Of a stretch of 64,000 nucleotides of DNA, positions 34,105-46,624 are shown one piece after another. The notes below the pieces were generated by a model, which was not told the origin of the DNA, ran no database searches, and saw only the letters and a list, made by a program, of their open reading frames with translations. Positions within the stretch are counted from its first letter, which is position 1; every line of letters starts with the position of its first letter. The position numbers and the translations under genes were made by a program. This stretch comes from Streptomyces vietnamensis (lineage in GTDB: Bacteria; Actinomycetota; Actinomycetes; Streptomycetales; Streptomycetaceae), in contig NZ_CP010407.1 of NCBI RefSeq assembly GCF_000830005.1, positions 5,770,001 to 5,834,000 of the forward strand. Direction: 5' to 3'.

Positions 34105-34108
<4 letters not shown>

Positions 34109-36183
34109 GAGGTGGGTGACCCTCCGGTCTGCGGGGACGGTCGCAGGGCGAGTACGTGCGCGGGCGTGACGCCCGGTTCCAGGCGCACGTAAGCGGCCCT
34201 GCCCCAGTGATAGGTCTCGCCGGTGAGCTCGTCGCGCACCGGCACGGTCTCGTGCCAGTCGAGGCCGAGTTCCGGCATGTTCAACGAGAGTGAAGCCTCC
34301 TGGGTGTGGTGCGGGTCGAGGTTGACGACCACCAGAACGATGTTCGAACCCGAACGCTTCGAGTACGCGATCACCTGCGGGTTGTCGGTGTCGTGGAAGG
34401 TCAGGTTCCGCAGCCGGCGGAGGGCCGGGTGGCGGCGCCTGATCCGGTTCAGGGCGGTGATCAGCGGGGTGATCGTCGTCCCGGCGCGCTCCGCCGACTC
34501 CCAGTCGCGGGGCCTCAGTTCGTACTTCTCCGAGTCGAGGTACTCCTCGCTGCCCTCCCGCAGCGGGGTGTTCTCGCACAGCTCGTACCCGGCGTACATG
34601 CCCCAGGAGGGCGACAGCGTCGCCGCGAGCACCGCCCGCGCCTCGAACGCGGGCCGGCCGCCCTCCTGGAGGTAGGCGTGCAGGATGTCGGGGGTGTTCA
34701 CGAAGAAGTTCGGCCGCATCTGCGCGGCCGTTTCCCCGGACAGCTCGGTGAGGTACTCCGTCAGCTCCTCCTTGGTGTTGCGCCAGGTGAAGTACGTGTA
34801 CGACTGCTGGAAACCGATCGCGCCGAGCGTCCGCATCATCGCCGGCCGGGTGAACGCCTCCGCCAGGAAGATCACGTCCGGATCGGCCCGGTTGATCTCG
34901 CCGATCACCCGCTCCCAGAACACCACCGGCTTGGTGTGCGGGTTGTCCACGCGGAAGATCCGCACCCCGTGGTCCATCCAGTGGCGCAGGATCCGCACGG
35001 TCTCCGCGACGATCCCGTCCATGTCCTTGTCGAACGCGATCGGATAGATGTCCTGGTACTTCTTCGGCGGGTTCTCCGCGTACGCGATCGAACCGTCCGG
35101 CCGGTGGTGGAACCACTCCGGGTGCTTCTCCACCCACGGGTGGTCGGGGGAGCACTGGAGCGCGAAGTCGAGCGCGATCTCCAGGCGCAGCTCCCGGGCC
35201 TTCGCCACGAACGCGTCGAAGTCCTCGAAGGTCCCCAGGTCCGGGTGGAGCGCGTCGTGCCCGCCCTCCGGCGAGCCGATCGCCCACGGCACGCCCACGT
35301 CGCTCGGCGCGGCCGAAAGCGAGTTGTTGGGGCCCTTGCGGTGGGTCTCGCCGATCGGGTGCACCGGCGGCAGGTAGACGACGTCGAAGCCCATCGCGGC
35401 GATCGCCGGGAGCCGTTCGGCGGCGGTGCGGAAGTTCCCCGGGACCGTACGCCCCTTCACCTTCCGCACCCCCTCCGAGCGCGGGAAGAACTCGTACCAG
35501 GAGCCGAACAGGGCCCGCTCGCGCTCCACCTGGAGCGGCAACGCGGGGGAGGCGGAGAGGAGTTCGCGCAGCGGGTGGCGGTCCAGGGCGTCGACCACCT
35601 GCGGGGCGAGCGCGGCGGCGAGCCGCACGGCCGCCGGACGCGACACGTCGCGCAGCACGTCCGCCGCCGCGAGCACGGCCTCCCGGCCGCCGCCCTTCTT
35701 CGGGACGCCCTTCGCGGCCCGCTCGTGCAGCTCGGCGCCCTCGGCGAGGACCAGTTCGGAGTCGATCCCGGCCGGGATCTTGATCCGCGCCGTGTGGCGC
35801 CAGGTGGCCACCGGGTCGCTCCAGGCCTCCACGGTGTACGTCCAGAGGCCCTCGGCGTCCGGGGTGACCTCGGCGCCCCACCGGTCGGTGCCCGGGGCCA
35901 GTTCGCGCATCGGGGTCCAGGGTCCTGGCCGGCCCGACGGGCCGCGCAGCACGACATTGGCGGCGACCGCGTCGTGGCCCTCGCGGAAGACGGTCGCCGT
36001 CACCTCGAAGGTCTCTCCGGCCACCGCCTTCGCGGGGCGCCGGCCACAGTCGACCAGCGGGCGGACGTCCAGTACGGGAATGCGTCCCATGAGCGGATTC
36101 ACAGCATCACCTGACGGGTTACGGGGGTGCGGGTGGTGGTGCGCTCTTTCTAGCTCCGTCGGCGGCCGGCGGGTTGCGGGCAT
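34105..36183 (-). CDS. glgE: Alpha-1,4-glucan:maltose-1-phosphate maltosyltransferase GlgE
   Basis: Extends alpha-1,4-glucan with maltosyl units from maltose 1-phosphate. The product is up to 692 residues (GH13_3): an N-terminal beta domain (about 40-135, with [12 protein letters not shown] and [27 protein letters not shown]), a helical insert, and the catalytic barrel with nucleophile Asp in [18 protein letters not shown], Glu in [14 protein letters not shown] and Asp in [13 protein letters not shown]. The ATG at 36183 has an AGGAG site and an MPAT N-terminus like that recalled for S. coelicolor GlgE. GTG at 36102 behind AGGTGA is the alternative. It heads the operon with treS. Confidence 0.95.
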
Positions 36184-36416: not shown

Positions 36417-37358
36417 TCAGGCGCGCGGCGAGGCGTCCGGGGTCTCCGCGTCCGACGACCACACCTGCCAGGGCTGGCGGGCCACCCACTCCTCCACCGG
36501 GGCCGGTTCCAGGCCGAGGACCTCCGACGACACCCCGTCGTCGTCCGTCATCAGGAGCGGATCGGCGCCGCTCGCCATGTAGTGGTAGATCCCCGCGACC
36601 CCGGCCGCCGTCTCCGGGCCGAGCAGCTGCGCCAGGCCCTGCTCGAACACGGCCGGATCCAGCTCCTCGTACCGCACCGTCCGGCCGAGGCCCCGCCCGA
36701 AGGCCTCGGCGAGCTCACGGCCCGTCAGGGCGCGGTCGCCGCCGATGTCGAAGGTCCGGCCCTCCAGGTCCTCCCGGGTGAGCGCCGCGAGCGCCGCCTC
36801 CGCGAGGCCCCGGTGCGACAGCCACGCCGTCCGCGCGGACTCCGGCAGGGGGTAGGCGAGGACGCCCTCGTCGACCAGGGCGGGCCCGTTCCACGGCGAG
36901 AACAGGTTGTCCAGGTACACCGGCGGCCTGACCACCACGAGCGGCACCCCGCTGTCCCGCAGGACCTGCTCCGCGAGCCGCCGCGTCTCGAAGGCGGCGA
37001 CGTCCGTCGGGCCCAGCGGAAGCCGGGTGTTGGCGTTGAACACGAGCCGTTCCGTGCCCGCCGCGAGCGCGGCCTCCGCGATGTTCCGCGCGTACGCCTC
37101 CACCCGCGTCCCGTCGTACACGAGCGGCATCGTGACGAACGCGTGCGTGGTCCCCGAGAACAGTCGCCGCACGTCCCCCGGCACCCCCAGGTCCCCGGCG
37201 AGGAAGAAGGCCCCCGGCAGCGGCGGCCGGTCCGCCTCCGGGCGCCGGGTCAGGGTCCGCACCCGGTGGTGCCGCTCGGCGAGGAGGCGGGCCACCGCGC
37301 CGCCCTGGAAGCCGGTCGCGCCCACGACCGCCACCCGCATCGGAATCTCACTGTCCAT
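36417..37358 (-). CDS. NmrA-like NAD(P)-binding protein
   Basis: A 313-residue Rossmann protein of the NmrA/atypical SDR group. The cofactor motif is VAVVGATGFQGGAVARLLAERHHRVRTLTRRP (GATGxxG), and no SDR catalytic YxxxK is obvious, as usual for NmrA-type redox sensors and NAD(P)H:quinone reductases. The likely start is the ATG at 37358; an ATG at 37340 is also possible. It is divergent from an AraC regulator 118 bases away, a common pairing in which the regulator controls the reductase. It ends in an intrinsic terminator toward glgE. Confidence 0.82.
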   Translation of the reverse strand: MDSEIPMRVAVVGATGFQGGAVARLLAERHHRVRTLTRRPEADRPPLPGAFFLAGDLGVPGDVRRLFSGTTHAFVTMPLVYDGTRVEAYARNIAEAALAAGTERLVFNANTRLPLGPTDVAAFETRRLAEQVLRDSGVPLVVVRPPVYLDNLFSPWNGPALVDEGVLAYPLPESARTAWLSHRGLAEAALAALTREDLEGRTFDIGGDRALTGRELAEAFGRGLGRTVRYEELDPAVFEQGLAQLLGPETAAGVAGIYHYMASGADPLLMTDDDGVSSEVLGLEPAPVEEWVARQPWQVWSSDAETPDASPRA

Positions 37359-37476: not shown

Positions 37477-38493
37477 ATGGAAACCGTGGGAACCGACCGT
37501 CACGACCAGCGCGACCCCCTCGACCGGCGCGACCCCCTCGATCCGCCCGGCGACGGCGAGCACGAGGACCTGCTGAGCGAGCTCCTCAAACCCCTCCGGC
37601 TCACCGGCGTCTTCGACAGCCGCTGGCACGTCCGCGCCCCCTGGGCCATCGAGGGCGACGCCGAACGCAGCTGCGCCGTCCTCCACTACGTCGTCGAGGG
37701 CGGCTGCTGGATCACCGCCGACGGCGAGGCCCCCGTCGAACTCCACGCCGGCGACCTCGTCGTCTTCCCCACCGGCGCCGCGCACCGCCTCTCCGACCGG
37801 CCCGAACGCCAGGGCGTCCCGCTCAAGGCCGTCCTGCCCGAACGGCAGCCCGGCACCTCCGGCGAGATCGTCATCGAGGGCAGCGGACCCGAGAGCCGCC
37901 TCCTGTGCGCCGGCCTCCACTACGACGCCAGCGCCGCCACCGGCCTCTACACCTCCCTGCCCTGGGCCCTCGTCCTCGACGGCCACCAGGTCGACCGCGA
38001 ACCGCTGCTCCGCGACACCCTCCGGCTGCTCGCCGCCCCCGACCGGCCCGTCGGCCCCGGCGACCGGCTCATCACCCTGCGCGCCTTTGAGATGGCGCTC
38101 GTCCTCGCGCTCCGCCCGCTGCTCCGCGAGCTCGCCGACAACCCGGCCTCGCTGCCGCTGCTCCGCCACCCCGGGATCAGCCGGGCGGTCGTCATGATGG
38201 CGACCCGGTTCGCCGAGCCCTGGACCATCGACTCCGTCGCCCGGGAGGTGGGCATGTCCCGCTCCGCCTTCACCGCCGCCTTCCGCGAACTCGTCGGCGA
38301 CTCCCCGGCCCGGTACCTCGCCGCCCGCCGCATGCAGGAGGCCGGCCGGCTCCTCACCGAGACCTCGCTCCCGCAGTCGGCCCTGCCCGAACGCGTCGGC
38401 TACCGCAGCGCCGTCGGCTTCCACCTCGCGTTCCGGAAGTGGTTCGGGGTGACCCCCGGCGAGTACCGGGCGGGCGAGGTCAGGGCCGCCTGA
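37477..38493 (+). CDS. AraC family regulator with cupin sensor
   Basis: A 338-residue regulator. The N-terminal cupin (about 30-160, with CAVLHYVVEGGCWITADGEAPVELHAGDLVVFPTGAAHRL) binds an unknown ligand. The C-terminal double HTH (about 235-335, WTIDSVAREVGMSRSAFTAAFRELVGDSPARYLAARRMQEAGRLL...) is typical of AraC/XylS. The ATG at 37477 follows GAAGGA. It lies between the divergent NmrA gene and, 140 bases downstream on the same strand, the flavin monooxygenase operon. It could control either or both; the standard pairing favours NmrA. Confidence 0.9.
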   Translation: METVGTDRHDQRDPLDRRDPLDPPGDGEHEDLLSELLKPLRLTGVFDSRWHVRAPWAIEGDAERSCAVLHYVVEGGCWITADGEAPVELHAGDLVVFPTGAAHRLSDRPERQGVPLKAVLPERQPGTSGEIVIEGSGPESRLLCAGLHYDASAATGLYTSLPWALVLDGHQVDREPLLRDTLRLLAAPDRPVGPGDRLITLRAFEMALVLALRPLLRELADNPASLPLLRHPGISRAVVMMATRFAEPWTIDSVAREVGMSRSAFTAAFRELVGDSPARYLAARRMQEAGRLLTETSLPQSALPERVGYRSAVGFHLAFRKWFGVTPGEYRAGEVRAA

Positions 38494-38541
38494 TCCGCCC
38501 GACCTGACATCTTCGGGAGCCCCTGGACGGTTCTTAAGGAC

Positions 38542-38572
38542 CCCTGGACGGACGTTCATTGTCCGTCCGGGG
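38542..38572. promoter_or_regulatory. Hairpin between the AraC gene and the monooxygenase operon
   Basis: GGACGGAC (38546-38553) and GTCCGTCC (38561-38568) form a stem, extended by CCC/GGG with one G-T pair, around the loop GTTCATT. The sequence CCCTGGACGG also occurs at 38521-38530. It may terminate araC or serve as an operator for the operon starting at 38634. Confidence 0.45.
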
Positions 38573-38633: not shown

Positions 38634-40064
38634 GTGACGAGGTCCGGGCAGGAGTATCTGGAGGGACTGCGCGACGGGCGCGAGATCTGGCTCGACGGGG
38701 AGCGGGTCAAGGACGTCACCGCCCACCCCGCCTTCCGGGCCTCCGCGGCCTCCTTCGCCGGCCTGTACGACCTCGCCGACGACCCCGTGCACCGCCCCGT
38801 CCTCGTCCAGGGCGGAGTGCGCCGCGCCGGTGCGGTGCCCCGCTCGTACGAGGAGCTCGTCGCCCGCCGCCGCGCCTTCCGCACCACGGCGCGGGCGAGC
38901 TACGGCTTCCTCGGCCGCACCCCCGACTACATGGCCGCCGGGGCGGCCGGGTTCGCCGCCGCGCCCGCCGTCTTCACCGGCGACGCCTTCGACGGCGCCG
39001 GGCACGCCCTCGCCTTCCACCGGCGGCTCGCCGAGGGCGACCTGCACACCGCGTTCACCCTCACCGACCCGCCGTCCGGCCGCGGCGAGGACGACCTCGC
39101 CCTGCGGGTCGTGGAGGAACGCGACGGCGGGATCGTCGTCCGCGGCGCCAAGACCATCGGCACCGGCGCGGTCTTCGCCGACGAGCTCCTCGTCGGCACC
39201 ATCGAGCCGCTCGCCGCCGACGACACCGAGCACGCCGTCACCTTCTCCGTACGGCTCGACACCCCCGGCCTCAAGCTGATCTCCCGCACCTCCTACGAGG
39301 AGCGCTCCCGGTCCGTCTTCGACCAGCCGCTCTCCTCCCGGTACGACGAGAACGACGCGCTGCTCGTCTGCGAGGACGTCTTCGTGCCCTGGGAACGCGT
39401 CCTCACCTACCGGGACCCGGCCACCACCGCCGCGATCTGGTGGCAGACCCCCGCCTACCTCAACTTCGTCCACCAGTCCGCCACCCGCTTCTGGACCAAG
39501 CTGGAGTTCCTCACCGGCCTCGCGATCCTGATCACCCGCTCGAACGGCACAGGGGACCTGCCGCCCGTCACCCAGGCGATCGGCCGGCTCCTCGGCATGG
39601 TCGCCCAGGCCAAGGCCTTCGTCCTCGCCGCCGAGGCCTCGTACGAGGAGGTCGACGGCGGGCGCGGCGGCGTCCGCCCCGGGCAGGAGATCTCCTTCGC
39701 CCAGCGGATCATGGCCGGCGAGCTGTACCCGCGCGCCGTCCAGGACGTCAAGCTCCTCGCCGGCGGCGCCCTCGTCCAGCTCCCCGCCAGCGGCCGCGAC
39801 CTGCTCCACCCCGAACTCGGGCCGCTGGTCCGCCGCTACTTCGCGACGCCCGGCCATCCCGCCGAGGACCGCGTCAAGCTCCTCAAACTCGCCTGGGACG
39901 CCCTCGGTTCGGAGTTCGCCGGCCGCCACGAGCAGTACGAGCGCTTCTACCACGGCGCCCCGCACGTCTACCTGACCATGCAGACCCGGGCCGGAGCGGC
40001 GGAGGAGTGCGAGAGCCTCGCGCAGGCCTGCCTCGACGGCTACGGCCTGGGGACGACCCGGTGA
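38634..40064 (+). CDS. HpaB-family FADH2-dependent monooxygenase
   Basis: A 476-residue flavin monooxygenase of the 4-hydroxyphenylacetate 3-hydroxylase (HpaB) family, which hydroxylates phenols or related aromatic rings using reduced flavin supplied by a partner reductase. Family segments: RSGQEYLEGLRDGREIWLDGERVKDVTAHPAF at the start, RARASYGFLGRTPDYM, FTLTDPPSGRG, the flavin-site RTSYEERS, and VPWERVLTYRDP with WWQTPAYLNFVHQSATRFWTKLEFLTGLA. No flavin reductase is next to it. GTG at 38634 is the likely start (GAGGAG 13 bases upstream). Its stop overlaps the exporter start (GTGA). It is the first gene of a four-gene operon. Confidence 0.87.
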   Translation: MTRSGQEYLEGLRDGREIWLDGERVKDVTAHPAFRASAASFAGLYDLADDPVHRPVLVQGGVRRAGAVPRSYEELVARRRAFRTTARASYGFLGRTPDYMAAGAAGFAAAPAVFTGDAFDGAGHALAFHRRLAEGDLHTAFTLTDPPSGRGEDDLALRVVEERDGGIVVRGAKTIGTGAVFADELLVGTIEPLAADDTEHAVTFSVRLDTPGLKLISRTSYEERSRSVFDQPLSSRYDENDALLVCEDVFVPWERVLTYRDPATTAAIWWQTPAYLNFVHQSATRFWTKLEFLTGLAILITRSNGTGDLPPVTQAIGRLLGMVAQAKAFVLAAEASYEEVDGGRGGVRPGQEISFAQRIMAGELYPRAVQDVKLLAGGALVQLPASGRDLLHPELGPLVRRYFATPGHPAEDRVKLLKLAWDALGSEFAGRHEQYERFYHGAPHVYLTMQTRAGAAEECESLAQACLDGYGLGTTR

Positions 40065-41512
40065 CGCCCCCCGGACGCGGGGCGCTCGCCCTCCTCGCCT
40101 CCACACAGCTGCTGCTGATCATGGACACCGCGATCGTCAACGTCGCACTGCCCTCCGTCGGCGAGGACCTCGGCTCCGGCTCCACCGGCCTGTCCTGGGT
40201 CGCCAACGCCTACCTCATCGCCTTCGGCGGACTGCTCCTCCTCGGCGGACGCGTCGCCGACCTCCTCGGCCACCGGCGGGTCTTCCTCGGCGGCCTCGGC
40301 CTGCTCGCCGTCGCCTCCGCCGCCGGTGGTCTCGCCCCCGGCGCCGACCTCCTCGTCGCGGCCCGCGCCGTCCAGGGCGTCGGCGCCGCCCTCGCCGCGG
40401 CCGCCGCCTTCGCCCTGCTGCTCCTGCTCTTCCCCGACGGCCCCGCCCGGCACAAGGCCCTCGGCGTCTTCGCCGCCATGGGCGGCCTCGGCGGAGTCCT
40501 CGGCACGGTCCTCGGCGGCGTCCTCACCGACCTCCTCGGCTGGCGCGCCACGTTCTGGCTGAACGTGCTCCTCGCCGCCGTCCTCGCAGCCCTGGCCGTC
40601 CGGATCCTCGCCCCCCGTTCGGGAGCGGTCCTCCGCGGCGGCTTCGACCTCGCCGGGGCGCTCACCGCGACCGCCGGCCTCGGCCTCGTCGCCTACGCCC
40701 TCGTCGGCGGATCCGAGGCCGGTTGGCTCTCCGCCCGTACCCTCGGCGCCGGGGGAGCCGGCCTGGCGCTGCTGCTCGCCTTCGCCGCGGTCGAGACCCG
40801 GGCCGCCGCCCCGCTGGTGCCGCCCTCCGTCCTCGCCCGGCCCGCGCTCCGCCTCGCCAACGTCCTCGCCGCGCTCGCCCAGACCACGCTGTTCCCGATG
40901 TTCTTCCTGGTCAGCCTGTATCTGCAGAGCGTCCTCGGATACGCGCCCCTGGGCGGCGGCCTCGGACTGCTTCCGCTGTCCCTCGTCGTCGTCGCGGTCG
41001 CCCCGCAGACCGGCCGGATCATCTTCCGCATCGGCCTGCACCGGGCCATGACCCTCGGCTTCGTCCTGCTGTGCGCCGGGACCGCGTGGCTGGCCCTCGC
41101 GCTCACCCCGGACGGCACTTATCCGAGCACCGTCCTCGCCCCCAGCCTCCTCCTCGGCGCCGCCCTGCCGCTGGTCATGGTCACCACCAACGTGGCCGCC
41201 ACCGCCGACGCCGCGCCCGAGGAGACCGGACTCGCCTCCGGACTCGTCAACACCAGCCAGCAGTTCGGCTCCGTCCTCGGCCTCGCCGTCCTGGTCGCCG
41301 TCGCCACCACCCGTACGGGAGACACCACCCGTACGGGAGACACCGGCCGCACGGGAGACGCCGGCCGCACCGGGGCCGCCGACGCGGCCCGCGCCGCCGC
41401 CGAGACCGCCGGCTTCCGCGCCGCCCTGCTCACCGGCGCCGCCTTCGCCGCGCTCGCCGCCCTGCTCTCCGTACGCCCGCGCGTACGGGAGCGGGTGCCC
41501 GAGCCGCACTGA
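40061..41512 (+). CDS. DHA2-type MFS exporter
   Basis: A 483-residue integral membrane drug:proton antiporter with about 14 transmembrane helices (EmrB/QacA group). Motifs: LLIMDTAIVNVALPSVGEDLG in helix 1 and LLGGRVADLLGHRRVFLGG after helix 2 (motif A). Residues about 416-441 hold a low-complexity loop, TRTGDT-like, encoded by four 18-bp tandem units. The GTG at 40061 overlaps the upstream stop by four bases. It probably exports the product of the surrounding oxidative genes, or gives self-resistance (inference from operon position). Confidence 0.88.
   Translation: MTPPGRGALALLASTQLLLIMDTAIVNVALPSVGEDLGSGSTGLSWVANAYLIAFGGLLLLGGRVADLLGHRRVFLGGLGLLAVASAAGGLAPGADLLVAARAVQGVGAALAAAAAFALLLLLFPDGPARHKALGVFAAMGGLGGVLGTVLGGVLTDLLGWRATFWLNVLLAAVLAALAVRILAPRSGAVLRGGFDLAGALTATAGLGLVAYALVGGSEAGWLSARTLGAGGAGLALLLAFAAVETRAAAPLVPPSVLARPALRLANVLAALAQTTLFPMFFLVSLYLQSVLGYAPLGGGLGLLPLSLVVVAVAPQTGRIIFRIGLHRAMTLGFVLLCAGTAWLALALTPDGTYPSTVLAPSLLLGAALPLVMVTTNVAATADAAPEETGLASGLVNTSQQFGSVLGLAVLVAVATTRTGDTTRTGDTGRTGDAGRTGAADAARAAAETAGFRAALLTGAAFAALAALLSVRPRVRERVPEPH
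41306..41377 (+). repeat. Four 18-bp tandem units inside the exporter gene
   Basis: Units of ACCACCCGTACGGGAGAC at 41306, 41324, 41342 and 41360, the last two diverged, encode the six-residue repeat TRTGDT. The copy number could vary without a frameshift. Confidence 0.85.
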
Positions 41513-41544
41513 CCGCACATCCCTCCGGAAGAAGGAGCGCTGCC

Positions 41545-42648
41545 TTGTTCGGCGACCCGCGTCACATGACCGAGGACATACGTGCCGCCGACCCGCTGGG
41601 CGCCGACGCCCTGCTCGCCGCGGTGCCCGGGATGAACGAGCGGGCCGACGCGGCCGCGCTGACCGTCGCCCTGCGCGCCCTGGTGCCCGACCTCGAGGAG
41701 GCCGCCGGATGGAGCGTCGGCGGCGCGCTCGCCGCCATGCGGGACCTCGGCATCCTGCTCGGCTCCCTCAAACGGCACGGCGTGCAGCCGCTGGCCGCCG
41801 TCCCCGAGGCCCTGCCCGTCCTCGAACTCCTCGGCCGCCGCACCGACATGATCCCCCGGGACACCGTCCACCACTACACGAGCTGGAACCCCACGGGCCC
41901 CCGCCGCCGCACCTACACCGGCCACCCCACCGAGGCCCGCCTCCAGGACGCGGTACGGATGGTGTTCCCGGGGCTCGTCGCGGCGCTCGAGGACTGCACC
42001 CGGGTCGCCCGCCTCGAACCGTACGACCCCGGGTTCCCGGCCGCCCTCGACCGCATCGCCGGCCACGTCCGGGCCATGGTGGAGTCCATCGACCTCACCG
42101 TCGCCCAGGTCCCGCCCGAGTACTTCGCGCTCACCCTCCGCCCCTACTTCGAGGAGGTCGAGATCGCCGGCCGCGACTACCTCGGCCCGGCCGCCGCACA
42201 GGTCCCGCTCTGGCTGGTCGACCTGACGCTGTGGCAGTGCGACCGCTCCGACGCCGCCTACGACGCCTTCCTCGCCGAGTCCCTGCCGTACGCCCTGCCG
42301 TCCTGGCGCGCCTTCCACGCCCGGCACCGGGGCGGGATCTCCGCCGTCAGCAAGCTGTCGGCGGCCGTCAGCTGGGAGGGCGCCGACCGGCTGCCGCCCG
42401 CGCTCACCGCCTCGGCGGAGGCGCTCGGCCGCGTCCTGCGGATCCTGAAGACCTTCCGGGCCCGGCACCTCGGCATCGCCCGCAAGGCCTACAGCGACGA
42501 CATACGCCTGTACGAGGAGGGCAGCGGCGGGGCCCCCGTCGCGCTGCTGCGCTCGATCCTGGACCTGACCAGGGAGAACGAGACCATGGTGCGCCGCGCG
42601 ACCGCGCAGCGCCGTCCCGCCGGCGCCCCCGTCGGCCCGGCCGCGTAG
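41545..42648 (+). CDS. PrnB-like haem protein (indoleamine dioxygenase superfamily, DUF1864)
   Basis: A 367-residue protein resembling monodechloroaminopyrrolnitrin synthase PrnB, which rearranges a tryptophan indole ring to a phenylpyrrole on a haem of the IDO/TDO superfamily. Similarity features are overall length, the HHYTSWNPTGPRRRTYTGHPTEARLQDAV segment, DLTLWQCDRSDAAYDAF, and a candidate proximal haem ligand His308 in KTFRARHLGIARKAY (PrnB uses His313). The start is taken as TTG 41545, because GAAGGAG sits seven bases before it; the in-frame ATG at 41566 would be too far away. No tryptophan halogenase is present, so the substrate is probably not 7-chlorotryptophan. It is third in the operon. 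Confidence 0.75.
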   Translation: MFGDPRHMTEDIRAADPLGADALLAAVPGMNERADAAALTVALRALVPDLEEAAGWSVGGALAAMRDLGILLGSLKRHGVQPLAAVPEALPVLELLGRRTDMIPRDTVHHYTSWNPTGPRRRTYTGHPTEARLQDAVRMVFPGLVAALEDCTRVARLEPYDPGFPAALDRIAGHVRAMVESIDLTVAQVPPEYFALTLRPYFEEVEIAGRDYLGPAAAQVPLWLVDLTLWQCDRSDAAYDAFLAESLPYALPSWRAFHARHRGGISAVSKLSAAVSWEGADRLPPALTASAEALGRVLRILKTFRARHLGIARKAYSDDIRLYEEGSGGAPVALLRSILDLTRENETMVRRATAQRRPAGAPVGPAA

Positions 42649-42656
42649 GAGCCGAG

Positions 42657-43991
42657 ATGTCCCCCCACACCCCGTACGGGCCGCAGTACGGCCAGAGCCC
42701 GCACATCCTGATCGCCGGCGGCGGCATCGCCGGCCTCACCGCCGCCCTCGCCCTGCACGCCGCCGGATTCGAGCGGGTGACCGTCGTCGAGGCCGCGCCC
42801 GCCATCCGCCCCGTCGGCGCCGGACTCAACCTGATGCCGAACGCCGTCCGCGAACTCGACGCCCTCGGCCTCCTCGACGCCCTGGAGGCCGGCGCCCTGC
42901 GCACCCGCGAACTGCGCTACTACCACCGCTCGGGCGGCCTGATATCCCGGGAGCGGCGCGGCCTCGCCGCCGGCTACCGCTGGCCCCAGCTGTCCGTCCA
43001 CCGCGGCCACCTCCAGCAGGTCCTGGCCGGCGCCGTCCGCGCCCGGCTCGGCACCGCCGCCCTGGTCACGGGCGTCCGGGTGACCGGCGTCGAACTGCTC
43101 CCGGGCGGGCGGCCCCGGCTACGCCTCGAGCACCGCGAAGGACCCGTCAAGGGCCGGGCCTCCCTCGAACCGGACGTCCTCGTCGGCGCCGACGGCATCC
43201 GCTCCGCGGTCCGCGCGGCGCTCAACCCGACGGAGGGCGGGCCCGCGTGGAACGGGATGCTGGTGTGGCGGGGGGTGTCCCGGATGCCCGCGCGGGCCGT
43301 GGGCTCCTTCATGTTCATCGCGGGCGACGACCGGCAGAAGGCCGTCGTCTACCCGATGGGCCGGCCCACCGGACCGGACAGGGAGGTCCTCGTGAACTGG
43401 GCCCTCGCCCGGCCCGCCGACACCCCCGGCGCCGCCGGCGAGGAGGGACTGCGGGGCGACTGGAACCGGCCCGCCCCCGTCGAGAGCTTCCTCCCGTACT
43501 ACGAGGGCTGGGAGTTCGACGGCGTCAGCGTCCCCGCAGTCCTGCGCGCCGCCGACACCGCCCACCTCTACCCGATGGTCGACCGCGAACCCCTCGACCG
43601 GTGGACCCACGGCCGCACCACCCTCATCGGCGACGCCGCCCACGCCATGTACCCCATCGGCTCCAACGGGGCGACCCAGTCGATCGTCGACGCCCGCGCC
43701 CTCGCCCACGCCCTCGCCCTCCACCCCGACCCCGCCGAGGGCCTCGCCGCGTACGAACGGGAGCGCCGCCCCGCCATGACCGCGCTCCAGCACGCCAACC
43801 GGCAGCTCGGCCCCGAGGTCGTCATCAACCTCGCCCACGCGCGCGCCCCGCACGGCTTCACCGACATCCACCAGGTCATCCCCGCCGAGGAACTCGCCGC
43901 CATCGCCGGCCGGTACGCCGCCACCGGAGCCTTCGACCCGACCACGGTCAACCAGGGCTCCCCGTACGAGACCGTCGTGCCCGCTCCCTAG
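42657..43991 (+). CDS. PhzS-like FAD-dependent monooxygenase
   Basis: A 444-residue class A flavoprotein monooxygenase. The FAD Rossmann motif is ILIAGGGIAGLTAALALHAAGFERVTVVEAA, the middle motif is DVLVGADGIRSAVRAALNP, and the ribityl-binding motif is TTLIGDAAHAMYPIGSNGATQSIVDARALA. The segments LRYYHRSGGLISRE, LSVHRGHLQQVLAGAVRARLG, MLVWRGVS, DWNRPAPVESFLPYYEGWEFD and YPMVDREPLDRW line up with the phenazine hydroxylase PhzS. An aromatic or N-heteroaromatic acid substrate undergoing oxidative decarboxylation or hydroxylation is therefore plausible. The ATG at 42657 follows AGGAG. It is the last gene of the operon, eight bases behind the PrnB-like gene. Confidence 0.85.
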   Translation: MSPHTPYGPQYGQSPHILIAGGGIAGLTAALALHAAGFERVTVVEAAPAIRPVGAGLNLMPNAVRELDALGLLDALEAGALRTRELRYYHRSGGLISRERRGLAAGYRWPQLSVHRGHLQQVLAGAVRARLGTAALVTGVRVTGVELLPGGRPRLRLEHREGPVKGRASLEPDVLVGADGIRSAVRAALNPTEGGPAWNGMLVWRGVSRMPARAVGSFMFIAGDDRQKAVVYPMGRPTGPDREVLVNWALARPADTPGAAGEEGLRGDWNRPAPVESFLPYYEGWEFDGVSVPAVLRAADTAHLYPMVDREPLDRWTHGRTTLIGDAAHAMYPIGSNGATQSIVDARALAHALALHPDPAEGLAAYERERRPAMTALQHANRQLGPEVVINLAHARAPHGFTDIHQVIPAEELAAIAGRYAATGAFDPTTVNQGSPYETVVPAP

Positions 43992-44074
43992 GACCTGTAC
44001 CGTCGGAGCGGCACGCCGGGCACACAGCGTGGTGCGCCCGCTCCGCTCCGTACTCGCCTGCGAAGGTGGACAAC

Positions 44075-46624
44075 GTGAAGGCAATCCGTCGATTCACCGT
44101 GCGTCCCGTCCTCCCCGACACCCTTCGACCCCTCGCCGACCTCGCGCACAACCTGCGCTGGTCCTGGCACGAGCCCACCCGGGCGCTCTTCGACTCCCTC
44201 GCGCCCGAGGGACTGGCCGGTGCCGACCCCGTACGGGTCCTCGGCGCCCTCGAAGCGCCCCGGCTCGCCGCGCTCGCCGCCGACCAGGAGTTCCTGGACC
44301 GGCTGCGCGCGGTCGCCGAGGACCTCGACCAGTACCTGCACGCCCCCCGCTGGTACCAGGGCCGCCCCGGCGACGCCCCGGCCGCCGTCGCCTACTTCTC
44401 GCCCGAGTTCGGCGTCGCCGCCGCCCTGCCCCAGTACTCTGGCGGCCTCGGCATCCTCGCCGGAGACCACCTCAAGTCCGCCAGCGACCTCGGCGTCCCC
44501 CTCGTCGGCGTCGGCCTGCTCTACCGGCACGGCTACTTCCGGCAGTCCCTCGGCCGCGACGGCTGGCAGCAGGAGCAGTACCCCGTCCTCGACCCCGGCG
44601 AGCTGCCCGTCACCCTGCTCCGCGAGGCCGACGGCACCCCCGCCCGGATCACCCTCGCCCTGCCCGGCGGCCGCAGCCTCCACGCCCAGATCTGGATCGC
44701 CCAGGTCGGCCGCGTCCCGCTGCTGATGCTCGACTCCGACGTCGAGGAGAACGCCCCCGGCGAACGGTCCGTCACCGACCGGCTGTACGGCGGCGGCAGT
44801 GAGCACCGGCTCCTCCAGGAGATGCTCCTCGGCATCGGCGGTGTCCGCGCCGTCCGCACGTACACCCGGCTCACCGGCCACCCCGCACCCGAGGTCTTCC
44901 ACACCAACGAGGGCCACGCCGGCTTCCTCGGCCTCGAACGCGTCCGCGAACTCCAGGGCGAGGGCCTCGACTTCGACAGCGCCCTGGAGGCCGTCCGGGC
45001 CGGCACCGTCTTCACCACCCACACCCCCGTCCCCGCCGGCATCGACCGCTTCGACCGGGCCCTCGTCGCCCGCCACCTCGGCGACGACGGCGCCCTCCCC
45101 GGCGTCGACCTCGGCCGGATCCTCGCCCTCGGCGACGAGACCCCGCTCGGCGGCGAACCCGGCGTCTTCAACATGGCCGCCATGGGCCTGCGGCTCGCCC
45201 AGCGCGCCAACGGCGTCTCCACCCTCCACGGCGCCGTCAGCCGCTCCATGTTCGCCGGGCTCTGGCCCGGCTTCGACGCCGACGAGGTGCCGATCACCTC
45301 CATCACCAACGGCGTCCACGCCCCCACCTGGGTCGCCCCCGAGGCCGCCCGGACCGGACCGGACGCGAGCGACCGGGAGCTGTGGGAGCTGCGCCGCACC
45401 CTCCGCGAACGCCTCGTCGCCGACGTACGGGACCGGCTGCGGGCCTCCTGGCGGCAGCGCGGCGCCGCCGCCGCCGAACTCGGCTGGACCGAATCCGTCC
45501 TCGACCCCGACGTCCTCACCATCGGCTTCGCCCGCCGCGTCCCCTCGTACAAGCGGCTCACCCTCATGCTCCGGGACAAGGACCGGCTGCGGGCCCTGCT
45601 CCTCCACCCCGAGCGGCCCGTGCAGCTCGTCGTCGCGGGCAAGGCCCATCCCGCCGACGACGGGGGCAAGAAGTTGGTCCAGGAGCTCGTCCGGTTCGCC
45701 GACGACCCCCGGGTCCGGCACCGCATCGTCTTCCTGCCCGACTACGGCATGGAGATGGCCCGCGGCCTCTACCCCGGCTGCGACGTCTGGCTCAACAACC
45801 CCCTGCGCCCCCTCGAGGCCTGCGGTACGAGCGGGATGAAGGCCGCGCTCAACGGCTGCCTCAACCTGTCCGTCCTCGACGGCTGGTGGGACGAGTGGTA
45901 CGAGCCCGAGTTCGGCTGGGCCATCCCCACCGCCGACGGCGCGGCCGCCGCCGACGAGGACCGCCGCGACGACCTGGAGGCCGCCGCCCTCTACGAGCTG
46001 ATCGAGCGCCGCGTCGCCCCCCGCTTCTACGACCGCGGCCCCGACGGGGTGCCGTCCGGCTGGACCGCCATGGTCCGGCGCACCCTCGCCGACCTCGGCC
46101 CGAAGGTGCTCGCCGACCGGATGGTCCGCGAGTACGTCGAGAGGCTGTACGTGCCCGCCGCAGGCTCCCGCCGGGCCCTCACCCCCGGGCGGGCGCGGGA
46201 CCTCGCCGCCTGGAAGGCCCGGGTCCGGGCGGCCTGGCCGGCGGTGGCCGTGGACCACGTGGAGATCGGCGACGACCTCGCCGAGGTGGACGCCGAACTC
46301 GGCGCGACGCCCGTCGTCCGGGTCCGGGTCGCGCTCGGCGGCCTGGAGCCCGACGACGTCGAGGTGCAGGCCGTCACCGGCCGAGTCGACGCCGACGACA
46401 CCCTCGCCGCCACCCGCACCGTCACCCTCAAACCGGCCGGCGGCCCCGACCTGGAGGGGCGGCTGCCCTACGCGGGCACCCTGGAGCTCGACCGGACCGG
46501 TTCCTTCGGCTGCACCGTCCGCGTCCTGCCCGCCCACCCGCTGCTCGCCCACCCGGCCGAACTCGGCCTCGCGGCCCTGCCGGGGGAGACGACGGGGGAG
46601 GGGGCGGGGGTGCTGCTGAGGTAG
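44075..46624 (+). CDS. glgP: Alpha-glucan (glycogen) phosphorylase
   Basis: Releases glucose 1-phosphate from alpha-glucan ends. The 849-residue GT35 enzyme has the N-terminal domain SPEFGVAAALPQYSGGLGILAGDHLKSASDLG, the TGHPAPEVFHTNEGHAGFL substrate region, the phosphate-binding FARRVPSYKRLTLML, and the pyridoxal-phosphate lysine in EACGTSGMKAALNG. The extra N-terminal DUF3417 segment (LPDTLRPLADLAHNLRWSWHEPTRALFDSL) is typical of the actinobacterial form. The start is GTG at 44075 behind GAAGGTGG. It supplies the degradative side of the GlgE pathway and reads away from glgE across the inserted operon. Confidence 0.95.
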   Translation: MKAIRRFTVRPVLPDTLRPLADLAHNLRWSWHEPTRALFDSLAPEGLAGADPVRVLGALEAPRLAALAADQEFLDRLRAVAEDLDQYLHAPRWYQGRPGDAPAAVAYFSPEFGVAAALPQYSGGLGILAGDHLKSASDLGVPLVGVGLLYRHGYFRQSLGRDGWQQEQYPVLDPGELPVTLLREADGTPARITLALPGGRSLHAQIWIAQVGRVPLLMLDSDVEENAPGERSVTDRLYGGGSEHRLLQEMLLGIGGVRAVRTYTRLTGHPAPEVFHTNEGHAGFLGLERVRELQGEGLDFDSALEAVRAGTVFTTHTPVPAGIDRFDRALVARHLGDDGALPGVDLGRILALGDETPLGGEPGVFNMAAMGLRLAQRANGVSTLHGAVSRSMFAGLWPGFDADEVPITSITNGVHAPTWVAPEAARTGPDASDRELWELRRTLRERLVADVRDRLRASWRQRGAAAAELGWTESVLDPDVLTIGFARRVPSYKRLTLMLRDKDRLRALLLHPERPVQLVVAGKAHPADDGGKKLVQELVRFADDPRVRHRIVFLPDYGMEMARGLYPGCDVWLNNPLRPLEACGTSGMKAALNGCLNLSVLDGWWDEWYEPEFGWAIPTADGAAAADEDRRDDLEAAALYELIERRVAPRFYDRGPDGVPSGWTAMVRRTLADLGPKVLADRMVREYVERLYVPAAGSRRALTPGRARDLAAWKARVRAAWPAVAVDHVEIGDDLAEVDAELGATPVVRVRVALGGLEPDDVEVQAVTGRVDADDTLAATRTVTLKPAGGPDLEGRLPYAGTLELDRTGSFGCTVRVLPAHPLLAHPAELGLAALPGETTGEGAGVLLR

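Follow-up and report, generated by a model that had tools for sequence, protein, structure and literature searches.

The window analysed here is a stretch of 64,000 nucleotides from Streptomyces vietnamensis (contig NZ_CP010407.1, positions 5,770,001 to 5,834,000), and between two genes which we take to be glgE and glgP it carries an inserted block of genes that includes a homologue of PrnB from the pyrrolnitrin pathway. Four genes on the + strand fill positions 38634-43991 according to gene calls and translations, and they encode an HpaB-like flavin monooxygenase, a transporter of the major facilitator superfamily (MFS), a PrnB-type haem enzyme and a PhzS-like monooxygenase dependent on flavin adenine dinucleotide (FAD). 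On balance, and by a slight preference, we favour the reading that this operon makes, and then exports, a hydroxylated compound of the aminophenylpyrrole type.

A first-pass annotation of this DNA had assigned the four products to these types, and profile searches with each protein bore this out, with matches to HpaB, MFS_1, PrnB and FAD_binding_3/PRK07538, respectively. The third product scored 116.2 bits against the PrnB profile (PF08933, cut-off 27 bits). Its predicted structure has the PrnB fold and, among the matches listed by Foldseek/VIA, ranks PrnB far above indoleamine 2,3-dioxygenase (IDO), so that the structural comparison suggested in that annotation points to PrnB. In an alignment of 87 rows, comprising the window, 76 of the 80 named loci described below, eight further loci and two chains from the PDB (L060, L102, L105 and L110 were left out, as none of them had one PrnB call of suitable length), His308 of the window aligns with His313 of PfPrnB and Ser327 with Ser319 of FbPrnB. 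These positions, the proximal haem ligand and the serine of the substrate loop, are each kept in 86 of the 87 rows, and Trp114 (81 rows), Arg305 (all 87) and the GSGG loop are kept as in the crystallised PrnBs. Tyr111 occupies the position of FbPrnB Tyr104, where PfPrnB has Val117, and the window pocket therefore resembles FbPrnB at this point. Sequence, predicted fold and haem and substrate residues together identify the third product as a homologue of PrnB. The only row that lacks the equivalents of both His308 and Ser327 is L062 (Streptomyces sp. CB02261), where HpaB and MFS are gone as well; the pathway seems to have decayed there as a whole, a single case rather than a rule.

The tight packing of the four genes on one strand was confirmed, with a GTGA overlap between the HpaB-like and MFS genes and gaps of 32 bases between MFS and PrnB-like and of 8 bases between PrnB-like and PhzS-like. 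The PrnB-like gene starts with TTG, and an alternative ATG at 41566 is possible. All four genes of the extent first proposed are present, but an NmrA-like gene on the - strand and an AraC-like gene on the + strand, both lying between glgE and the operon, had been overlooked, and the unit is larger: NmrA-like, AraC, HpaB-like, MFS, PrnB-like and PhzS-like genes travel together.

A first search covered 199 Streptomyces genomes, 22 of which had a PrnB match, 14 of these with at least 54% identity. The operon adjoins glgP in 13 of these 14 genomes, the window included, the fourteenth being G098. HpaB relatives of at least 66% identity were found in exactly the same 14 genomes (next best 44%), and PhzS relatives of at least 59% in 15, namely the same 14 plus G119. 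The distance between glgE and glgP was asked for in 26 genomes, 7 of which gave no distance, a match being absent or lying on a different contig. The match starts lay 0.48-2.1 kb apart in all 11 measured genomes without the operon, in line with the remark in the first-pass annotation that the two genes are neighbours in S. coelicolor, and 8.0-17 kb apart in all eight measured genomes with it. No trace of NmrA, AraC, HpaB, MFS, PrnB or PhzS was found at the 11 empty glgE-glgP sites. The block is inserted between these two genes; in one locus (L027) the glgE side lies beyond the fetched stretch, with glgE 17 kb away.

A scan of species genomes for named relatives, run with eight aligned PrnB rows, yielded 90 confirmed stretches, the best 80 of which (L045-L124) are considered here; as they were chosen via PrnB, loss of PrnB cannot show among them. 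Fifty-one of the 80 are of the window type, and 44 of these have both glg flanks. These 44 glg-site loci carry NmrA (44), AraC (44), HpaB (42, one of them an 18% piece), MFS (37) and PhzS (43, the sole miss, L053, having an assembly gap), and the window's gene order between glgE and glgP is exact in 35 of the 44. Median ratios of non-synonymous to synonymous substitution (dN/dS) to relatives were 0.33-0.40 for the four operon genes vs 0.27 for glgP and 0.20 for glgE; calculated by the Nei-Gojobori method, which is rough in high-GC DNA, they are read only as being below 1. The kept gene order and these ratios show that the operon is more than a chance assembly. In a tree of the 87 PrnB rows the window groups with the glg-site loci, and the branches of both PDB PrnBs are long, for which reason the tree was not used for dating or rooting.

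Features of the six-gene unit and its flanks (positions in the window)
Feature	Position	Strand	Evidence or remark
glgE (presumed name), left flank, outside the unit	34105..36102	-	gene call and relatives
NmrA-like NAD(P)-binding protein	36417..37358	-	PF05368 E 1.5e-26; divergent from operon
AraC-type regulator (Cupin_6 + HTH_18)	37477..38493	+	PF12852 E 2.5e-37; PF12833 E 1.2e-20
CTGGACGG direct repeat, two copies with 21-bp spacing	38523..38551	+	candidate AraC operator of the operon
HpaB-like flavin monooxygenase	38634..40064	+	HpaB_N E 8.5e-78; HpaB E 3.5e-53; His142-equivalent is Phe
MFS transporter, exporter-like (DHA2-like)	40061..41512	+	PF07690 (MFS_1) E 1.5e-43
PrnB-type haem enzyme	41545..42648	+	PrnB (PF08933) E 2e-33
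PhzS-like (PRK07538) FAD monooxygenase	42657..43991	+	FAD_binding_3 E 6.6e-22; GGGIAG, DG and GDAAH motifs
glgP (presumed name), right flank, outside the unit	44066..46624	+	gene call and relatives

The substrate is suggested by relatives of the operon. In G098 (L036), trpC lies within the PrnB operon according to Pfam, with trpD, trpG and trpE, as read from the sequence, beside it. Three or four trp genes accompany 9 of the 29 loci outside the glg site; L104 has trpC and trpD, and L110 trpE only. All ten genomes concerned (G098 and nine others) hold two or three copies of trpC, and the window's genome holds one. Furthermore, a tryptophan halogenase adjoins PrnB in two Glycomyces loci (L114, L115) and is found on the same stretch as PrnB in S. 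halstedii (L122). A second set of trp genes and tryptophan halogenases, two separate kinds of context, point to tryptophan as the substrate, and with this background the PrnB-type enzyme very likely acts on L-tryptophan. The Glycomyces and S. halstedii loci probably make halogenated relatives of the product. A flavin reductase is also encoded on the PrnB-PhzS stretch in L114, L115 and L122, and L114 has in addition a ketosynthase and a KAS III.

In FAD-dependent HpaB the residues Arg100, Tyr104 and His142 are described as holding the phenol hydroxyl, with His142 deprotonating the phenol (PMC10537072). The window's protein belongs to the same family as the 4-hydroxyphenylacetate (4-HPA) 3-hydroxylase HpaB (2yyg, 6b1b) and chlorophenol 4-monooxygenase (4oo2), but unlike these it has Phe for His142, and there is no HpaC gene in its operon; the Arg and Tyr of the triad are present. 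Among 58 HpaB-like proteins of at least 400 aa (the window's and 57 from named loci), the Arg100-equivalent is kept in all and the Tyr104-equivalent in 47, with Cys in the other 11, and the His142-equivalent is Phe in all 58 vs His in the three solved HpaB-type proteins. Scores against the NCBIfam equivalogs fell below the cut-offs (267.0 of 885.2 bits for TIGR02310, 260.8 of 480.2 bits for TIGR02309), which together with the exchanged His rules out a canonical 4-HPA 3-hydroxylase. A substrate without a phenol hydroxyl, such as an arylamine or a pyrrole, would explain the replacement. The PhzS-like protein scored 484.2 bits against PRK07538 (NF005720, cut-off 400) and resembles the phenazine hydroxylase PhzS (2rgj, 3c96; E 9.5e-83 over 370 residues), with which it shares the motifs of class A FAD monooxygenases. 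For the transporter, membership of MFS_1 is clear, and its 198.8 bits against TIGR00711 (DHA2) lie under the cut-off of 230.2.

Upstream of the operon, copies of CTGGACGG start at 38523 and 38544, exactly 21 bp apart and 83-111 nt upstream of the HpaB start; a spacing of 21 bp, two helical turns, is typical of AraC-type activators. No other pair at spacings of 18-25 has fewer than two mismatches on the window's + strand, and the - strand has one pair (spacing 24, one mismatch). Of 47 loci, 44 have a repeat pair with at most 3 mismatches in 16 positions in the 200 nt that precede the first gene, 28 of them with at most one mismatch; for the 16 loci with two or three mismatches, which were controlled by shuffling, 0 of 50 shuffles scored as well. 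The pair lies farther upstream in L062 and L067, and no pair was found upstream in L075. In L069 and L096, which have extra DNA between AraC and HpaB, it lies near the operon and not near AraC. We propose that this pair is the AraC operator of the operon. The AraC protein itself scored 118.9 bits against RclR (NF040475), below the cut-off of 400. Its Cys144 is conserved in all 63 sequences compared, Pseudomonadota included, and Cys66 in 61, and a thiol-based sensor is conceivable.

Operon-type loci occur in many Streptomyces species and in a few distant bacteria. Outside the window type are 29 of the best 80 loci, 12 of which have HpaB, PrnB, PhzS, NmrA, AraC and MFS. Eleven of these also carry a ketosynthase, and the twelfth, from Crenobacter (L102, Pseudomonadota), has the window's same six genes in a different order. 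In the larger clusters, as in this Crenobacter locus, the NmrA-like gene has the same strand as the operon. Seven loci (L117, L118, L120-L124) combine PrnB and PhzS with a methyltransferase, PhzS and methyltransferase forming one frame in four of them. PrnB-PhzS is the most constant pair, found in 73 of the 80 loci, which were picked by PrnB. Four loci with PrnB of 51-55% identity lack PhzS (L106, L107, L111 and L112; two Actinopolyspora and two Streptomyces genomes). A search of plasmids turned up 7 records with identities of 51% at most, and none of the three examined carried the window's operon. One plasmid, 0.8 Mb and linear, of Streptomyces sp. NBC_01717 (L140, NZ_CP109179.1) has genes for DoxX, PrnB, a flavin-dependent oxidoreductase, a ketosynthase and a phosphopantetheine-binding protein on one strand. 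A distant PrnB-like clade of about 30% identity (L039-L044) has Arg for Trp at position 114 in 6 of 6 members. There PrnB adjoins a GHMP-type kinase and a decarboxylase dependent on pyridoxal phosphate (Pfam on L039), with methyltransferase-, HAD- and glycosyltransferase-like genes nearby as judged by eye, a set which we take to be reminiscent of psilocybin-type tryptamine pathways.

In the pathway that we propose, the PrnB-type enzyme would rearrange the indole of tryptophan to the 3-(2-aminophenyl)pyrrole type, releasing CO2, a reaction that we lean towards for the window enzyme. The PhzS-like enzyme, nearly always beside PrnB, would then hydroxylate the PrnB product, a step that we hold to be reasonably probable. 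With reduced flavin supplied in trans, the HpaB-like enzyme may introduce a second oxygen, into an arylamine or pyrrole and not into a phenol, and the MFS protein would export the resulting aminophenol or quinone-imine-like compound. The AraC protein may switch the operon via the 21-bp-spaced repeat, possibly in response to the product, and the NmrA protein may serve as a reductase or redox guard. The first-pass annotation, which had suggested a route from tryptophan or another aromatic amine to an exported oxidised heteroaromatic, finds support in part.

Several observations weigh against this proposal. The operon has no flavin reductase, seven candidates being found elsewhere in the genome, and joint function gains no independent support from genes occurring together within one inherited operon. 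Of the 44 glg-site loci, 7 lack MFS and 2 lack HpaB, in gap-free DNA, and a third HpaB is cut to 18%, so that neither is essential everywhere. L067 has lost HpaB and MFS yet keeps the PrnB residues, and L094, a related cluster of the ketosynthase type, is without HpaB and MFS on its stretch. PhzS was not seen in 5 of the 80 PrnB loci, one of them with an assembly gap, and G119 (L139, G119:C75) keeps PhzS alone between glgE and glgP, without PrnB; glgP is in pieces at this site, so the assembly is doubtful, and no other operon gene was found there. According to PMC11791213, PrnB yielded no product in vitro with many reductants and oxidants, and prnABCD function in E. coli without PhzS, which means that PrnB in general does not need PhzS. 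Finally, another haem enzyme, Luz15, is reported to be a tryptophan 5-hydroxylase (PMC13036774).

This last point leads to the main rival, which we consider somewhat unlikely, namely that the PrnB-like enzyme hydroxylates or oxidises the tryptophan indole in the manner of Luz15, without rearrangement, and that the hydroxyindole is passed on to the PhzS- and HpaB-like enzymes for further oxidation. Tryptophan hydroxylation is likewise the role proposed for a PrnB homologue in the paenidepsin cluster (PMC13036774), and genes for tryptophan supply fit a tryptophan hydroxylase equally well. On the other hand, the window clade keeps the residues of both crystallised PrnBs at positions 114 and 305 and in the GSGG loop (the clade L039-L044 has Arg at 114), the predicted fold places PrnB far above IDO, and a tryptophan halogenase stands beside PrnB in Glycomyces, as in pyrrolnitrin clusters.

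The unit might instead degrade or modify an indole or aromatic amine from the soil, with AraC and NmrA sensing a reactive compound and the pump removing it. The distant, far sub-threshold likeness of AraC to RclR, the NmrA-like redox protein, the lack of a carrier protein among the six genes and the site between genes of primary metabolism would suit such a role, but a second set of tryptophan synthesis genes in related clusters builds the substrate and does not remove it, and no ring-cleavage enzyme is among the six genes; we regard this as quite improbable. Highly unlikely in our judgement is a true pyrrolnitrin-like pathway with its halogenases and Rieske enzyme elsewhere in the genome. It shares PrnB with the window and is suggested by the label "Pyrrolnitrin-like?" given to what is probably the same locus in S. 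venezuelae (see below), but the 44 glg-site relatives carry the window's set and, for the queries listed, nothing more. With Azotobacter salinestris prnA, prnC and prnD as queries no match was obtained in the 64 kb window (best tblastn E 7.8, 0.71 and 4.1), which rules these genes out there; no search for halogenases was made in the rest of the genome.

Among known systems, the pyrrolnitrin cluster prnABCD (Pseudomonas; A. salinestris L142) shares with the window a compact one-strand operon and tryptophan as the starting point, its PrnB being 37% identical over 342 aa (E 1.4e-61), but the window lacks prnA, prnC and prnD and has PhzS-like, HpaB-like, MFS, AraC and NmrA genes instead. L142 lies on a plasmid typed as conjugative (NZ_CP045303.1) and combines a prnA-prnB-prnC-prnD-like cluster with flavin reductase genes, close to a group II intron gene and insertion sequence genes. 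Marinoquinolines, reportedly described by Linares-Otoya in 2019 as aminophenylpyrrole alkaloids of tryptophan origin, are halogen-free phenylpyrroles like the proposed product, a likeness of compound type alone. Natural occurrence of 3-(2'-aminophenyl)-pyrrole is documented (PMC2630848). The mansouramycin pathway of Streptomyces has a tryptophan-derived amino-quinone precursor (PMC12690601); mansouramycin was rejected as the product, given that "PrnB" and "monooxygenase" occur 0 times in the main text of that article, a comparison by text and not by sequence.

In S. venezuelae NRRL B-65442, biosynthetic gene cluster (BGC) 17 is tabulated as "Pyrrolnitrin-like?", with RS25415-25435, five gene numbers, and metabolite "ND" (PMC9769785), and an antiSMASH region of type "Other" from 2021 spans 5,475,407-5,516,513 (PMC8788739). 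The PrnB of genome G015 at 5,495,955-5,497,054, in two frames, falls inside this region, and to judge by these coordinates BGC 17 is probably the same operon. In this gene (G015:C1:5495955-5497054; L008, L023, L030) the frame is broken near residues 305-308, truly or by sequencing error. Beyond the BGC 17 label, no gene-level description or product of the operon was found in the open-access literature searched. The earlier statement that no characterised pathway is known with this set stands, within that literature, as regards a product, with the qualification that the locus had probably been listed.

PhzS is known for decarboxylative hydroxylation. We tentatively suggest, as a possibility to which we give less than even weight, that PrnB and the PhzS-like enzyme are a two-enzyme module widespread in both Actinomycetota and Pseudomonadota. 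The flavoenzyme would directly take the unstable PrnB product, or a still-carboxylated dihydropyrrole, to a hydroxy-aminophenylpyrrole, perhaps by the chemistry known for PhzS. The enzymes that follow would differ by lineage (HpaB, a methyltransferase, a ketosynthase or a halogenase), natural PrnB-PhzS and PhzS-methyltransferase frames would reflect enzyme-to-enzyme hand-over, and a missing partner could explain the absent in vitro activity of PrnB. The idea of an irreducible PrnB-PhzS core is weakened by the solitary PhzS of G119 and the five loci without PhzS.

Loci that keep a flavin monooxygenase beside PrnB would provide a concrete partner for an unsolved haem enzyme, and the proposed operator may serve as a handle for turning the operon on. 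Under the favoured reading, the operon points to a new class of exported, halogen-free compounds derived from tryptophan in many Streptomyces, the probable carriers of the operon including the model species S. venezuelae.

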